The position numbers and the translations under genes are program-made. From the IMG/VR virus record IMGVR_UViG_3300017786_000089, positions 1 to 29,265 of that record: a stretch of DNA of 29,265 nucleotides, one strand, 5' to 3'. The notes below the pieces were generated by a model that ran no database searches, was not told the origin of the DNA, and saw nothing but the letters and a program-made list of their open reading frames with translations. This DNA comes from a virus. Numbering within the stretch: the stretch's first letter is position 1; each line of letters begins with the position of its first letter. Of the stretch, positions 3,248 through 10,188 are shown piece by piece.

Positions 3248-4081
3248 ATGCCTACTGGACCTGGCGCAGGTATTAAAAAATATACCACAGAGAATTTGAT
3301 CACAAAGCTGATGCATTCAGCTACTACATCAAACTACTTTCTGTCTATCAATGTTCCTCGTGTTGTATTATCACACATTACAAAGACAAAAGGTTTAGCC
3401 ATCACCTCTAATCTTAGAGAAAGAATTAATATTGCTTGCACTAGTGCTACTCTTCCTGGTTCATCATTTGCAACCCATGATGTAACATCTGATTATATGG
3501 GTGTTACTGAAAAGATGGCATATAGAAGAATGTATGATGATCAAATGGCAGTTGAAATGTTAGTTGATTCTGAATATAAAACTCTTCACTTTTTTGAAGG
3601 ATGGATGGATTACATTTCTGGAAAAGGAATTAGTGATAGAGGAAATAATGAGAATTATAAAAATTTTAGAAATGGATTTAGGATGAATTATCCTGATTCT
3701 AATCCTGGTGAACTGGGTAAAGGTTATAGAGAAAAAAATCTAATTGAGTTATATAAATTTGAAAGAGATACATCAGTGTCTCAAAGTATTAAGTACACAA
3801 TGGTACAGGGATTTCCTATTTCCATGAATGCCATGCAACTCAATTATGGTGGCACTGAAGTTCTTAGATTGACAGTAAACTTTACTTTTGTAAGATATGT
3901 AACTGAACCATATACTCCTGGTTCATCTACACCATCACCTCCATCAACCAATCCCAAAACTACTATTAAGGGAATACCAGATCAACCTTTTCAATTTCAA
4001 CAAAATAGTGGATTTCTTCTTAATCAGAATTTATATAATGAATTTGGTCAATTTATTCCACCATCTCAGAACATTGCCTAA
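3248..4081 (+). CDS. 54: Baseplate tail-tube initiator, gp54-like
   Basis: This 277-residue protein has the tube-fold layout of gp19, gp54 and gp48 relatives. An early strand pair (SNYFLSINVPRVVL, about 29-42) is followed by CTSATLPGSSF, a central helix with HFFEGWMDYISG (about 117-128), and closing strands MVQGFPISMNAMQLNYGGTE and LRLTVNFTFVRYV (about 190-220). The same order of FRMxxxxxxxxxxxDW, GCIPISVSAPELSY and FDVTFAYRV features is known from T4 gp54. The size (320 in T4) and the neighbouring gp26 favour gp54 over the main tube protein gp19, but gp19-like is the alternative. A Pro/Ser/Gln-rich tail of about 55 residues follows. No clear ribosome site precedes the ATG. It is the first gene of the long rightward operon. 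Confidence 0.6.
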   Translation: MPTGPGAGIKKYTTENLITKLMHSATTSNYFLSINVPRVVLSHITKTKGLAITSNLRERINIACTSATLPGSSFATHDVTSDYMGVTEKMAYRRMYDDQMAVEMLVDSEYKTLHFFEGWMDYISGKGISDRGNNENYKNFRNGFRMNYPDSNPGELGKGYREKNLIELYKFERDTSVSQSIKYTMVQGFPISMNAMQLNYGGTEVLRLTVNFTFVRYVTEPYTPGSSTPSPPSTNPKTTIKGIPDQPFQFQQNSGFLLNQNLYNEFGQFIPPSQNIA

Positions 4082-4111: not shown

Positions 4112-4828
4112 ATGCCTTTACCAAAGATTGTTACACCAACATTTGAGTTGGATTTGCCTTCATCAGGAAAAACAATTAAGTATAGACCCTTCCTAGTAAA
4201 GGAAGAAAAACTTCTAGTCATTGCACTTGAGTCTGAAGACTCACAACAGATTACAACAGCAATCAAAGCAGTTATTTCTGATTGTATTCTTTCAAAAGAT
4301 GTAAAGATTGAAACACTACCAACCTTTGACATTGAATATCTTTTCCTTAATATTAGAGGTAAGTCTGTTGGTGAGGTTGTAGAGGTTAATATTGTATGCC
4401 CAGATGATGGTGAGACTGAGGTCAAGATTTCTATTAATCTTGATGAGATTCAGGTTGTTAGAAATGAGGAGCATACTAAAACTGTAAAACTTGATGATAC
4501 TTACTTTATGGATATGAAGTATCCTTCTCTTGAACAATTCATTAGAAACAATTTTGAATTTGAAAACCCAGATATGGATCAATCATTTGAATTGATTGGT
4601 TCTTGTATTGATAAAATTTATGATAATGAAGAGGTTTGGTCTACAAGTGACGTAAGTCCTCAAGAAGTAAAGGATTTTCTTGAGCAGTTGAACTCTACAC
4701 AATTTAAAGAGATTGAAAAGTTCTTTAGCACTATGCCAAAACTTTCTCATACTATTGATGTGAAAAATCCAAAGACCAAGAAGAAGAGTAAAGTTACTCT
4801 GGAGGGACTGTCAAGTTTTTTCGCATAG
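4112..4828 (+). CDS. 26: Baseplate hub assembly protein gp26
   Basis: This 238-residue protein is typical of the T4 gp26 baseplate protein family (208 residues in T4). It begins PLPKIVTPTFELDLPSSGK, then KYRPFLVKEEKLLVIA (about 24-39), a D-rich middle with LPTFDIEYLFLNIRGKSVG, and a cysteine strand VNIVCPDDG. In T4, gp26 and gp51 act in hub assembly and are not main virion parts, a role like that of tail assembly chaperones. The ribosome site AGGAT lies five bases before the ATG. The last sense codons, AGT TTT TTC GCA, form a T TTT TTC slippery heptamer (4816-4822), and the -1 frame from there runs directly into the downstream small gene. Some ribosomes may therefore make a longer gp26-gp51 fusion. 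Confidence 0.85.
   Translation: MPLPKIVTPTFELDLPSSGKTIKYRPFLVKEEKLLVIALESEDSQQITTAIKAVISDCILSKDVKIETLPTFDIEYLFLNIRGKSVGEVVEVNIVCPDDGETEVKISINLDEIQVVRNEEHTKTVKLDDTYFMDMKYPSLEQFIRNNFEFENPDMDQSFELIGSCIDKIYDNEEVWSTSDVSPQEVKDFLEQLNSTQFKEIEKFFSTMPKLSHTIDVKNPKTKKKSKVTLEGLSSFFA
4816..4822 (+). other. Candidate programmed -1 frameshift site (T TTT TTC) with downstream hairpin
   Basis: In the gp26 frame the codons are agT TTT TTC gca tag, which is the X XXY YYZ arrangement with U at X and Y. A one-base slip back continues as CGC ATA GGT ATG GCA, entering the next gene in frame with no stop between. Two bases past the heptamer, ATAGGTATG (4825-4833) can pair with CATACTAT (4853-4860) with one bulged G. 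A short ACAT/ATGT stem (4838-4841 with 4849-4852) can form inside. The fusion would be about 294 residues. Frameshifting between adjacent assembly-chaperone frames is well known in lambda (G and GT) and many tailed phages. Use here is an inference. Confidence 0.5.
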
Positions 4829-4830
4829 GT

Positions 4831-5001
4831 ATGGCACACATGGATATGATGTCATACTATAAACTTAATTTTTCCTTGATGCAGTACCATAAATATTCAT
4901 TAACTGAGATTGAAAATTTGATCCCTTGGGAGAGGGAAGTTTATACCATTTTACTTGAGCAACACCTTAAAGAAGAAGAGGAAAAGGCAAAGAGAAAGTA
5001 A
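4831..5001 (+). CDS. 51: Small gp51-like hub assembly protein
   Basis: This 56-residue frame reads MAHMDMMSYYKLNFSLMQYH and then YSLTEIENLIPWEREVYTILL, closing with a charged helix, LKEEEEKAKRK. The position directly after gp26 and before the tail-interior genes matches T4 gene 51, the hub assembly catalyst (249 residues in T4). The protein here is far shorter, so the label rests on position and on the assembly-chaperone-like pattern of a helical acidic tail. The segment LTEIENLIPWEREVYTILL resembles the second half of tail assembly chaperone pairs. It begins two bases after the gp26 stop with no clear ribosome site of its own, and it is in the -1 frame of gp26. Its stop overlaps the next start (TAATG). 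Confidence 0.6.
   Translation: MAHMDMMSYYKLNFSLMQYHKYSLTEIENLIPWEREVYTILLEQHLKEEEEKAKRK
4888..4895 (+). promoter_or_regulatory. Possible internal late promoter box
   Basis: CATAAATA fits NATAAATA and lies about 105 bases upstream of the next large gene, inside the gp51-like frame. It may boost transcription of the tail-interior genes. Short AT-rich matches occur by chance, so this is weak. Confidence 0.3.
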
Positions 5002-7373
5002 TGGCAACTACCCAAACTAACGTAAACAAGGAAGTTAATCAGGGTATCTTGCGCGATTATCTTGGCATTAGTGATGGAAGTGATATTGATTTTGGTACAT
5101 ATAAAACACTAATTCAAGAAAAGATTACTGCTGCTAGAGTAAGTAGCAGTAAGGTGGATAGTGGTGACATAGCAATTCTTACAAAGGAATTTGTTAGAAT
5201 AAAGAAGATAAAAATACCAGGTAGTCAAGAAAAATCCAAGATTGACGCAAAGAAATTTTTTAAAGAGCAAGAGAAAGCAGCAAAGAAAGTTGCAGAAAAA
5301 TCTAACAAAGCTGCTGAAAAAATATCAAAACAGAAATTTATAGGCACTGCCACAAATCAAAAATCTGAAAAAAAAGAGAAAGCAAAACCACAACTTTTAC
5401 TTCCTGGTGGTGCAGAACCACAACAAGAAAGTGTTAGTAATGATGAAGTAAAGAAGGGTATTGATGATGTATCACTCAAACTTTCTGGACTTAAGGACAA
5501 CCTGCAAAGTATCTTAGATACTCTAAAGAAGCAAGCAAAACTTGAACTGAAAGAAGATAGAGAAGAAAATGCTCAAGCTCAAAAGAGTAAGAGAGTAGAT
5601 AAAGAAAAATTATTAGAGAGTAAAGGTAAATCTACAGGGGATGATAAGAATTTAGCTAAGAAGGCAGTGAAACCTGCAAAGGGAATTTTTGATATGTTGA
5701 TGGATTTCTTTAAAAATATCTTACTTGGAGGAGCACTTTTATTCTTATTAAAAGTATTAAAAGATCCAAAGAAATTTTTACAACCTTTGATTGATGTTTT
5801 TAATAATGTTTTAAAATTCTTTAATGGTATTATAGGAGGAATCAATGGTTTCATAGATGGATTTAACAAATTTGTACTAAGTCCAATTAATGATTTTGTT
5901 CTTAAACCAATTCATTCATCTTTGAATTTTATTGAAGATAGAATTAATGATGTTCTAGGTCTTTTTGGTGCTGATCCTCTTGAAAATATATCAGAACAAC
6001 CTCCAATATTGGAAATTCCTAAGATACCTGAGATTCCAATGTATGATCCTTTTAATGTAAGACCTGAAAATCAAAAAGCACCACCTGTTCAAACATTTTC
6101 TGGTGGTGGTAAGATAACAAATAATAGTATTAATATTACAGGTGCAGGTGCTGATACTCAATTGATTGCTGCTCAACCTGGTGAGATTGTAATGAGTAGA
6201 GGTGCTGTTAATAAGTATGGTGCAAGTAATCTATTAGCAATGAATGCTGCTGGTGGTGGTAGTAATGTTCCCAAAAATAATAACAATATTCAGGGATTTA
6301 GTGGTGGTGGATTGGTTGGTGGTACAGCAGGTGCCAACTCTCCTGATAGAGCAGGTGGAAAAGCAAAGAATACAAAAGTTTTCTTACACTGGACTGGAGG
6401 AGATCATAATAGTAATGTTGGACCATATCACCAAGTTTTTAGTGGTAGTGGCAAACCATTTAGAAATGCATCATATGGTGTTGATAATAGAGATGGAACT
6501 GGTGGATATAATGGAAACTCAATTGCTCTGGCAGCAGCTGCTATGGGTCATGGACCACCAAGAAAACCTTACAGTGATAGTAGAGGGTGGAAAGAAAATC
6601 CACTAACAAACGCTCAGACCACTGCTATGGCTAAAGAAGCAGCAGGTTTATTAAAAGCATATGGTCAGACTGCTGCTGATGTAGATAAGAATGTGATGAC
6701 TCATGGAGAAATTGAAAGATTTGGAGTTAAGAGTGGAAAGTTAGGTGGTGGTGTTCAAAGATGGGATTTAGATTCTCTATCACCTGGATCATATAATCAT
6801 CCAGGTGGGTTTTTCTCTACTAGACAAGTTAAATCAACTGGTGGCAACCAGATGAGGTCTAAGATTAAGAGTTTCATGGCAGGAGGTAACGGATCATCAG
6901 TATTCACTAGACCAAAGGGAGTTAGTTCTACAAACTTTACTTTACTTACTGCTATGGGTAAAGATTCAAGGCAAAAAATCCTAATGAGTAAAGTGGGTGA
7001 TAAAGTTGATGGAGTAACAGTCACAGAGAGTTTGAGAAGTGAGACAAATACATACAATCTTGCAAAATCTGACTTTGATAAGATGACTTTAGCAGCTACA
7101 TCTAGTGTCAAAGACCCTGCTGAAACTGCTGGCACATCTGCACCTGCCAATATTACATCTTCTCCAACAAGACAAGCACCAGGTCCTAGAGTAGTTGATA
7201 ATAGTATTTTTATGGGTCCAAATCAGGGAGATGGTACAGTGCCTAGAGGTGCCACACCTACATCACTTGCTGGTAATGCTAATGGAACTGAAGGAGTTCC
7301 TTCTTTTTCATCACAAGATTCAATGAATACTGAGACTCTTATTATTAAATCAATCTATAGTTTGGTAGGATAA
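5001..7373 (+). CDS. Tail-interior (tape-measure-like) protein with peptidoglycan amidase domain
   Basis: This 790-residue protein has, in order: a Lys/Ala/Glu-rich coiled-coil N-terminus (about 1-230); a hydrophobic motif NILLGGALLFLLKVLKDP (about 239-256) followed by amphipathic segments to about 320; a stretch AAQPGEIVMSRGAVNKYGAS (about 390-410) typical of the C-terminal part of tape-measure proteins; and a domain from about 458 to 595 with the layout of type-2 N-acetylmuramoyl-L-alanine amidases. That domain shows LHWTGGDH with His463, NGNSIALAAAAMG, PLTNAQTTAMA, MTHGEIERFG with His568, and WDLDSLSPG. His463 and His568 are likely zinc ligands. Such an enzyme cuts the bond between muramic acid and the stem peptide. 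Here it would act locally at the tail tip during infection. The last residues (YSLVG) and the anchor motif are shared in style with the next gene. Start overlaps the gp51-like stop. Confidence 0.75.
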   Translation: MATTQTNVNKEVNQGILRDYLGISDGSDIDFGTYKTLIQEKITAARVSSSKVDSGDIAILTKEFVRIKKIKIPGSQEKSKIDAKKFFKEQEKAAKKVAEKSNKAAEKISKQKFIGTATNQKSEKKEKAKPQLLLPGGAEPQQESVSNDEVKKGIDDVSLKLSGLKDNLQSILDTLKKQAKLELKEDREENAQAQKSKRVDKEKLLESKGKSTGDDKNLAKKAVKPAKGIFDMLMDFFKNILLGGALLFLLKVLKDPKKFLQPLIDVFNNVLKFFNGIIGGINGFIDGFNKFVLSPINDFVLKPIHSSLNFIEDRINDVLGLFGADPLENISEQPPILEIPKIPEIPMYDPFNVRPENQKAPPVQTFSGGGKITNNSINITGAGADTQLIAAQPGEIVMSRGAVNKYGASNLLAMNAAGGGSNVPKNNNNIQGFSGGGLVGGTAGANSPDRAGGKAKNTKVFLHWTGGDHNSNVGPYHQVFSGSGKPFRNASYGVDNRDGTGGYNGNSIALAAAAMGHGPPRKPYSDSRGWKENPLTNAQTTAMAKEAAGLLKAYGQTAADVDKNVMTHGEIERFGVKSGKLGGGVQRWDLDSLSPGSYNHPGGFFSTRQVKSTGGNQMRSKIKSFMAGGNGSSVFTRPKGVSSTNFTLLTAMGKDSRQKILMSKVGDKVDGVTVTESLRSETNTYNLAKSDFDKMTLAATSSVKDPAETAGTSAPANITSSPTRQAPGPRVVDNSIFMGPNQGDGTVPRGATPTSLAGNANGTEGVPSFSSQDSMNTETLIIKSIYSLVG

Positions 7374-7374
7374 T

Positions 7375-10188
7375 ATGGCTGTTTTTCTACTTCCTCTTGC
7401 TAAAGGTTTATTGAGTGCTGGTGCAAAGGCAGGCGCTAAAAAAGCGCTTATGAATAAAGCAAAAAGTGTTGCTAGTAATAAAGCAAAGAAATTTTTAAAA
7501 AATAAAAAAAGTAATAAAAAAACTAGAAGCACAAGTTCTGAAAAATCAACAACAAGTAAAGGTGGTGCTCTAGTAAAAGCAATGAATGGTGGTGGTGTCA
7601 CTGCTATGAGAAAATCATCATCTGTGAAAGTTAAGAATCCAAATTTAAGTGCAAAGGGGTCTAAAATTGGTTTTCAAAAAATCAATATTCAACTTGATAA
7701 TATCAATAAGTTAACAGGTTCTATTGATGATGCTCTCAAAGGACAATATCAGAAAGAAGTTCAGGAGAGAAAAAGCAGAAGAGAAGCAGCAGCAAAATTA
7801 AGAAAGTCAAGAAGAGAACAACTTCTTGAGGGTGGTAAGAAAGCAGCAGGTGTTGCTTCTGGTGTTGTTTCTGGAGTTGGTGGAGCATTTGATTTTATGG
7901 GATTCATCACCAACATATTACTTGGTGGTCTTCTCCTTTTTCTTGTAAAGAGTTTCAAAAAAATAATTAGTGCATTTAATTTTGTAAGAGATAATCTTTA
8001 CTTAGTATTTGCTTCTTTAAGAGCAATACTGCAAGCATTCAGATTAGCAGGTAGTGGACTTAAAGCCTTTGTTAGAGGTGCCATCAAGGCACCACTTAAA
8101 ATTATAAAGGCAGGGTTTAAGGGATTTTTTAGATTATTCTCATCAATATTAAGGAAAGGTGGTTCTCTAATTGGTGCAGGATTAAGAGGACTTGGCAATG
8201 CTTTATTTGATTTTGGTGCAGCAGCGATTAAAAGAATAAAAGATTTAGCAGTTGTAGCAGGGAGAGGTTTAGTTCGTGGTGCTAAAGCTGCTAGAGATTT
8301 AGCAAACTTTTTAAGAAAAACAGCACCTCTAACAAAACTCAGGTCAGCAGCTGGTAAATTATTTCAAAAAGCACTAGCAACACCAGCAGCACGTCTTGCT
8401 AGTAAAATATCATATACAAGATTAGGTAACAAAGCAGCTGAATTGATTTTTGATGCAAGACTTGGAATAAGGTCTGCTAAAAAAGCATTAGCACCAGTGT
8501 TATCAACAGGTAAAGATCTCCTCAAAGCTGGTGCTGCTGGAGGAAGAAAATTAATAACTGAAGGAGGAGAGTTATTAGTAAGGGGTGCAGATAAGGGAAG
8601 ACGTGCAGCAAGTGCTTTAAAAGGTAAAGTAAGTCCATTCCTTAAAAAACTCTTGGGTAGTAAGGGAGCACAAGAAGTAGCAGGTGCAGCACCATTTCTC
8701 AAAAGATTAAAAGGTCCATTAAGTAAAATCAAGATTCCAATCATTGGACCACTCCTTGTACTTGGTATAAATTTACTTGATCCTGATGTAGGTGTAGAGG
8801 AGTCAATCTTCAAAGCATTAGGAACAGCAGTTGGTGAGATTATTGGCACATTAGTTCCTATACCAATTCTTGGTACATTGATTGGTGGTCTTCTTGGTGA
8901 GTATGGAGGTTCTCTTCTCTATACATTGATTAGAGGTGGTGGTATTGGACCATTTCAAAAAAGAATAAGTGAAGACTTTAAAAAACTAATTGATGTAGGT
9001 AAACAGGGGTGGGAATTTATAAGTGGTGGAACAAAAAGATTGATTGATAATTTTCCAGAGATAAAAGTTCCTAAAAAACTTGGTCTACAGACAACACTTG
9101 GTTTAATGTTTCCATTAGTTGGTCCTCTTCAAGGAAAAAGACTTGGTGCAAGGATAGAAACCCTTCCTGATCTTGGTGCATTTTTTAATATGGATAAGAT
9201 GGGGTCATTAATGAAAGGTTCATTCTTCCCTGATAAATTTGATATGCCAAAATTTAAAAGTGCAGAACCCAATTTAGATGATTTAACTGAAGAAGAGCAG
9301 GCAATGATAGATACTATGCCCACAAAAACCAGCACACCTACAACACCTTTGGTGGGTGAGGTTAAAGATCCAAAAGAGACTGATGGACAATCTGCTCCAA
9401 AAGCAACTCCAACAACTGGAACTGGATTAAAAGATGTTGTTCCTACTGCTAACCTTATGGCAAGGGGTGTTGGCACTGGTGATGTTGGTATGACTAGTGG
9501 AAGAGGAATGAGGATGAGTCCCACACTGGGAAGAATGAAACATCACGCTGGTGTTGACATTGGCACTAATGGTGAGAAAGGATATTTTGTAGCCTTTAAA
9601 TTGAAAGGAAAGGTAAGTCTTATATCTAACTTGTCTGGATATGGAGAAACTGTTATAATTGAGGCAGGTGGATATGATTTCTTATTTGCTCATCTTGCTA
9701 GAAGATCAACTCTTACACAGGGTCAACCTTATAACGGTGAAATCATTGGTGAGATTGGTAACACTGGAGTTGGAACAGGTGAGCACCTTCATTTTGAAGT
9801 TAGATCAGTTGGTGGTGGCAGTGGAACTGATGTAGATCCAATGCCTTTTGTAAAACATCTTGTAATTGGTAGAATGGGAGATGGTTCTGCAGTTGGAACG
9901 CAAACAGCACCCTCAACAACATTCTCGCAGGTTACTGAATCTGTAATAAGACCTGCTTCACCAGGGTCTTCAGCACCTGCTGCATCTAGAAACTTAGAAC
10001 AATACCCCTCATATGATGATGCTCAAAGAAATATCATTGTGATGGGTCAAGGTGGCAGAAGAGGTGGTGGAGGGTCATTACCAAGTAGAGGTGGTGGTAC
10101 TACAATGAGAACAGGTGCTTCTACAACTGACATGTTAAATAGTTATTATAAACAACAACTCTTAGGGTTACTGTATAAAGTAGGATAA
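7375..10188 (+). CDS. Tail-interior protein with M23 peptidase domain
   Basis: This 937-residue protein has a very basic N-terminus (about 1-60) and a Gly/Ser-rich linker. A coiled stretch of RRE/KSRR repeats leads to a hydrophobic motif TNILLGGLLLFLVKSFKK (about 179-196) that closely resembles the one in the gene before it. A long basic amphipathic region (200-440) follows, then a hydrophobic Gly-rich segment (about 450-520) with PIPILGTLIGGLLGEYGG. Near the C-terminus lies an M23 (lysostaphin-type) metallopeptidase domain with HHAGVDIG (His724, Asp728), FAHLARR, and GNTGVGTGEHLHFEVR (His804, His806). All expected zinc ligands are visible. Such enzymes cut peptide cross-links of peptidoglycan. 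The ribosome site AGGAT lies within the end of the previous gene. It could be the tape measure itself, because residue count and hydrophobic segments fit. Confidence 0.75.
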   Translation: MAVFLLPLAKGLLSAGAKAGAKKALMNKAKSVASNKAKKFLKNKKSNKKTRSTSSEKSTTSKGGALVKAMNGGGVTAMRKSSSVKVKNPNLSAKGSKIGFQKINIQLDNINKLTGSIDDALKGQYQKEVQERKSRREAAAKLRKSRREQLLEGGKKAAGVASGVVSGVGGAFDFMGFITNILLGGLLLFLVKSFKKIISAFNFVRDNLYLVFASLRAILQAFRLAGSGLKAFVRGAIKAPLKIIKAGFKGFFRLFSSILRKGGSLIGAGLRGLGNALFDFGAAAIKRIKDLAVVAGRGLVRGAKAARDLANFLRKTAPLTKLRSAAGKLFQKALATPAARLASKISYTRLGNKAAELIFDARLGIRSAKKALAPVLSTGKDLLKAGAAGGRKLITEGGELLVRGADKGRRAASALKGKVSPFLKKLLGSKGAQEVAGAAPFLKRLKGPLSKIKIPIIGPLLVLGINLLDPDVGVEESIFKALGTAVGEIIGTLVPIPILGTLIGGLLGEYGGSLLYTLIRGGGIGPFQKRISEDFKKLIDVGKQGWEFISGGTKRLIDNFPEIKVPKKLGLQTTLGLMFPLVGPLQGKRLGARIETLPDLGAFFNMDKMGSLMKGSFFPDKFDMPKFKSAEPNLDDLTEEEQAMIDTMPTKTSTPTTPLVGEVKDPKETDGQSAPKATPTTGTGLKDVVPTANLMARGVGTGDVGMTSGRGMRMSPTLGRMKHHAGVDIGTNGEKGYFVAFKLKGKVSLISNLSGYGETVIIEAGGYDFLFAHLARRSTLTQGQPYNGEIIGEIGNTGVGTGEHLHFEVRSVGGGSGTDVDPMPFVKHLVIGRMGDGSAVGTQTAPSTTFSQVTESVIRPASPGSSAPAASRNLEQYPSYDDAQRNIIVMGQGGRRGGGGSLPSRGGGTTMRTGASTTDMLNSYYKQQLLGLLYKVG

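Follow-up and report, generated by a model that had tools for sequence, protein, structure and literature searches.

In phage lambda and in other phages with frameshifted tail assembly chaperones (TACs), a short form such as gpG is accompanied by a long form such as gpGT, which carries an extension read in the -1 frame (Levin 1993; Xu 2004; review PMC5009743). That review, from 2016, still set T4 apart as the exception to the conserved G-T frameshift (PMC5009743). PMC3004832 describes T4 gp51 as required but not present in the particle and counts gp26 and gp51 among the hub assembly chaperones; it also cites evidence for gp26 in the T4 hub. As relayed by two papers that cite it (PMC10885494, PMC12846349), the study of Vladimirov, Gautam & Davidson 2022 (Virology 566:9-15) deals with the tail assembly chaperones of T4-like phages, with gp26 as TAC-N and gp51 as TAC-NC. 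PMC10885494 takes from that study that some T4-like phages do without frameshifting and have a short gene plus a long fusion gene, and PMC12846349 refers to it for -1 slippery sequences of the poly-T kind in T4-like TAC-N genes. A poly-T -1 signal at the end of the TAC gene has also been described in myoviruses of the Vandenendeviridae and Andersonviridae, which are other virus families and have the motif GTTTTT (PMC12846349).

A literature search under the names gp26 and gp51 returned no description of a frameshift at gp26/gp51, and the 2022 study surfaced through a citing paper. An earlier note on the DNA analyzed here had likewise known of no such description for T4-type gp26/gp51, a statement that has to give way to the 2022 report as PMC12846349 cites it for poly-T -1 sites in T4-like TAC-N genes. 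Given this prior report, we treat the locus as an instance, and a well-supported one, of a phenomenon already reported in 2022: frameshifting in T4-like tail assembly chaperones. What may add to the known work is the upstream Shine-Dalgarno (SD)-like element, together with the statistics on folding and the distribution over marine phages.

The window is the whole stretch of DNA that was analyzed, 29,265 nt of virus record IMGVR_UViG_3300017786_000089. Its gp26 and gp51 belong to the same protein family as the T4-like TACs of Vladimirov 2022, and the gene order is tail tube, gp26, -1 extension/gp51 and tape measure-like gene. The features of the locus are as follows.

3248-4081, + strand: tail tube-type protein directly 5' of gp26 (PF23849 Phage_TTP_2; PHROG 45 tail tube)
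4112-4828, + strand: gp26, zero-frame product of 238 aa (PF12322 T4_baseplate, PHROG 150); putative short tail assembly chaperone form
4801-4806, + strand: GGAGGG, SD-like element 9 nt 5' of the heptamer; probable stimulator
4816-4822, + strand: slippery heptamer T_TTT_TTC, in frame, two codons 5' of the gp26 stop
4822-5001, + strand: -1 frame extension after the slip (RIGMAHMDMMSYYK...), putative C-terminal part of the long form; fused product of 296 aa
4828-4858, + strand: predicted stem-loop, 5-nt spacer from the heptamer; probable stimulator
4831-5001, + strand: annotated-type gp51 ORF within the -1 extension, 56 aa, -1 phase
5001-7373, + strand: 790-aa protein that occupies the tape measure gene position of relatives; its own tape measure profile match is weak (E 0.006)

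The gp26 gene (4112-4828) ends in AGT TTT TTC GCA TAG, with TAG at 4826-4828. The earlier note had placed the heptamer within these last codons and had claimed a -1 frame free of stops into the ATG of the 56-residue frame; both claims hold in the window sequence, where no stop interrupts the -1 frame from 34 nt 5' of the gp26 stop up to and including the ATG at 4831. A slippery site at the 3' end of a first ORF, with the -1 frame open into a second, is a feature of the gpG/gpGT type. The window heptamer differs from that of lambda gpG/gpGT in being U_UUU_UUC, and the searches used found no sequence similarity between lambda-type TACs and the window gp26/gp51. Lambda-type TAC genes lie between the tail tube and tape measure genes. 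In the window the tube gene upstream is clear from its Pfam and PHROG matches, and in the relatives phiM12 and D490 the same downstream position has matches to tape measure PHROGs. Where one tape measure gene is expected, the window has two proteins, the 790-aa protein (5001-7373) and a 937-aa protein (7375-10188) with a metallo-endopeptidase (endolysin-like) domain at residues about 700-840.

The best reading of these sequences, and in our judgment a highly probable one, is that -1 frameshifting makes a short/long tail assembly chaperone pair; gp26 and gp51 would be one gene with two readings. Most ribosomes would terminate at the TAG and release the 238-residue short form. A minority would pause at UUU UUC, aided by pairing of GGAGGG with 16S rRNA behind and by the hairpin ahead. 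Both tRNAs would then slip by -1, and translation would continue as far as 5001; the resulting long form of 296 residues would have residues 1-237 in common with the short one. The two forms would be T4-family counterparts of lambda gpG/gpGT, serving as chaperones for tail tube and tape measure assembly.

Conservation of the heptamer among relatives

The + strand of the AT-rich window has 115 heptamers of the form X XXY YYZ, and several of these are in frame. A motif this common proves nothing alone, and the case rests on conservation in relatives. We drew 157 relatives with a complete gp26/gp51 junction from viral contigs and phage records; the non-redundant set comprises 130 genes with <85% DNA identity to each other and a median pairwise DNA identity of 58%. 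The heptamer T_TTT_TT[C/T] is present at an unchanged aligned position and phase in 155 of the 157 (136 TTC, 19 TTT), counts that are not independent trials, as the relatives share ancestry. A small frame in another phase, or loss of the heptamer, was looked for as the earlier note had proposed, and neither was seen in these 155. The heptamer extends to phages of Vibrio (KVP40 type), Aeromonas (PX29 and CC2), Stenotrophomonas, Sinorhizobium, Pelagibacter and Methylophilales, and two Rhizobium phages have the variant T_TTT_TTG (U_UUU_UUG) at the site.

The two relatives that lack the heptamer are the Ackermannviridae-type phages Kuja and Vibrio D506. Among phages of this type, Vibrio Kuja, Vibrio D506 and Serratia 3M (L086, L087 and L165) have a small -1-phase frame after gp26 and no tandem slippery heptamer (CCTTTTTCAA, CTTTTCAAG, GGTTTTCATC). 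These heptamer-less relatives may use another signal or coupling.

Codon 236 is TTT in all 130 non-redundant genes, compared with 28% TTC among Phe codons elsewhere in the gene, and the base 5' of this TTT is always T, compared with 72% T-ending codons among the other Ser, Asp and Asn codons. Codons 235-237 have the highest excess codon conservation of all three-codon stretches in the gene (0.295, against a mean of 0.045 and sd of 0.055). The heptamer stays fixed while the gp26 stop varies in position, lying one codon past it in 123 relatives, immediately after it in 15 and 8 codons past it in 16. The last group (L096-L100, L106, L108 and others) would have a short form with a different tail.

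Candidate stimulators on either side of the heptamer

The -1 signal of E. coli dnaX consists of an SD-like element about 10 nt upstream, a slippery heptamer and a hairpin a few nucleotides downstream. The window has the same layout, with spacers of 9 nt and 5 nt, and stimulation by the two flanking elements is predicted. It differs from dnaX in its heptamer and in its purpose, the frameshifted product of dnaX being the shorter one.

The upstream GGAGGG (4801-4806) had no place in the earlier note's account of the signal. In the relatives, SD-like 4-mers start almost only 12-15 nt 5' of the heptamer, and the mean anti-SD duplex energy upstream of the heptamer is -6.3 kcal/mol, versus -2.1 kcal/mol in control windows of the same genes. 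The Glu-Gly pair 5' of the heptamer is written GAGGGN or GAAGGG, both of which keep AGGG, in 80 of 88 genes, compared with 19 of 55 Glu-Gly pairs elsewhere. Where Glu is GAA, Gly is GGG in 17 of 25 cases at the element and in 1 of 37 elsewhere. Judged from these codon counts, the retention of AGGG is a choice made at the DNA level, beyond the need of the protein.

Downstream, a hairpin does follow the heptamer, as the earlier note had claimed, although not with the coordinates (4825-4860) or the 2-nt spacer that it gave: the best fold covers 4828-4858, at -10.5 kcal/mol and with a dinucleotide-shuffle z of -2.0. Spacers between heptamer and hairpin usually measure 5-9 nt. With 5 nt at the best-folding stem the spacer is therefore within the usual range, and the short spacer that had been named as a weak point is not one. 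Among the relatives, the opening 14 codons of the -1 frame form more stable folds than synonymous versions of the same stretch (mean z of -1.68, versus -0.44 and -0.65 in control windows). The stem differs from clade to clade, and RNAalifold on an anchored gapless alignment of the relatives found no consensus structure. This rules out one fixed covarying hairpin as a claim, and we therefore claim only locally optimized folding.

Routes to the -1 product

The -1 frame is under selection as protein. After the slip it encodes a conserved R-I-A-L-S-H-x-x-L-E-x-Y. Among the 49 relatives without a start codon in this stretch (see below), L, H and E are nearly invariant and the third codon positions are the most variable (0.50, versus 0.35 at position one and 0.29 at position two). 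One way to obtain this protein without frameshifting would be to make gp51 separately from ATG 4831, by termination-reinitiation at the gp26 stop, with the heptamer as a mere conserved Phe pair. That ATG is two bases past the TAG, and gp51 is annotated as a gene of its own in records, with a start that overlaps the gp26 stop in Vibrio D490, Mendera and PVA8. We consider this route highly improbable. In 49 of the 130 non-redundant relatives, neither ATG nor GTG nor TTG occurs among the first 14 post-slip codons of the -1 frame, and yet the stretch is conserved as protein, which makes separate initiation of gp51 unlikely in them; on this sequence evidence, their -1 stretch could hardly be translated by any route other than from gp26. 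The window ATG itself has no SD at the usual spacing, GGAGGG ending 24 nt upstream, in agreement with the earlier note, which saw no clear ribosome site for the small gene. A mere Phe pair also fits poorly with a gp26 gene whose other Phe codons are both TTT and TTC. The T4 homologue of the -1 stretch is fused to a gp26-like domain, and in Aeromonas phage CC2 no gp51 is annotated, though the -1 frame (L164, 3205-3373) is open and conserved. The window phage, with ATG codons at 4831 and shortly downstream, may make some gp51 separately.

Slippage could instead occur during transcription, on the T run, so that an mRNA with one base less or more would yield the long form by ordinary translation. 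The six-T run is present in nearly all relatives and reaches eight T in a few (Melnitz-3, L120, L124). Six-base runs are short for bacterial transcriptional slippage, however, and the heptamer preserves the pattern needed for tRNA re-pairing. An SD-like element at a fixed distance and a downstream fold make sense for ribosomes, and transcriptional slippage seems to us a very poor candidate beside ribosomal frameshifting.

Relation to T4 gp26 and gp51 and meaning for the family

Both products of the locus are homologous to the T4 gp26/gp51 family (PF12322, PHROG 150/634), and T4 gp26 and T4 gp51 themselves both belong to PF12322. In PHROG 150 (282 positions), T4 gp51 matched over 13-280 and T4 gp26 over 14-235. 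On a profile of the fused product (297 positions), the gp26 proteins of T4, Krischvirus, Acinetobacter KARL-1 and RB43 match as far as about 237, the slip point, whereas the match of most T4-type gp51 reaches 281-291; the very divergent gp26 of Aeromonas 31 matches it in part. A profile built from the -1 products finds T4-type gp51 and not gp26. By these matches, T4 keeps the short and long forms as two genes, 26 for the short and 51 for the long.

Genes 26 and 51 of T4 are separate and divergent, and separate gp26 and gp51 genes are also present in Krischvirus, Aeromonas 31, Acinetobacter KARL-1 and RB43. Instead of this two-gene arrangement, the window and most relatives have one gene with a -1 junction. 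At the equivalent place T4 gp26 reads GAG TTC TTT, with no heptamer. In an unrooted tree the T4-type gp51 proteins grouped firmly, and the gp26 proteins of Aeromonas 31 and RB43 (Aer31_26, RB43_26) had long branches. These data are compatible with a single change between the two-gene and one-gene arrangements, its direction unproven with an unrooted tree. A viral_contigs search with the Vibrio D490 gp26 protein found no relative.

Annotation of the gp26/gp51 locus is inconsistent across public records. T4 gp51 is a member of PHROG 150 and also of PHROG 634, and the latter (baseplate hub assembly catalyst, annotated cyanophage gp51) appears to consist largely of C-terminal fragments of the frameshift product.

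To look for structural relatives, we compared an AlphaFold2 model of the window gp26 (pLDDT 86.6) with 350,542 PDB chains using Foldseek. The HK97 tail assembly chaperone 2ob9 ranked 1 and 2 and YqbN (3klu) ranked 5, with probabilities of 0.75, 0.87 and 0.38, respectively, and weak E values of 0.5-1.3. A fold search with a T4-type gp51 model gave no chaperone match, and searching solved structures by sequence with the T4-type profile yielded no useful match. The idea of the earlier note that gp26/gp51 are of the tail assembly chaperone type gains support from the gene order, the homology to T4 gp26/gp51 and the weak structural match to the HK97 chaperone. We infer from these that they act as short and long tail assembly chaperones in the style of lambda gpG/gpGT.

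Most likely, the short "gp51, baseplate hub assembly catalyst" annotated in hundreds of cyanophage genomes does not exist by itself; it would be the C-terminal portion of a product made by frameshifting. This reading also gives T4 gp26 and gp51 a role open to testing, that of the short and the long tail assembly chaperone. The signal and its two likely stimulators are now located and can be tested directly by reporter assay. More speculatively, the three-part signal (SD-like element, U6 heptamer and hairpin) across marine Kyanoviridae might be both undescribed and the ancestral state, with T4 having swapped the frameshift for a duplication into genes 26 and 51. We hold this combined proposal to be doubtful; if it is true, T4 would no longer be an exception among long-tailed phages.
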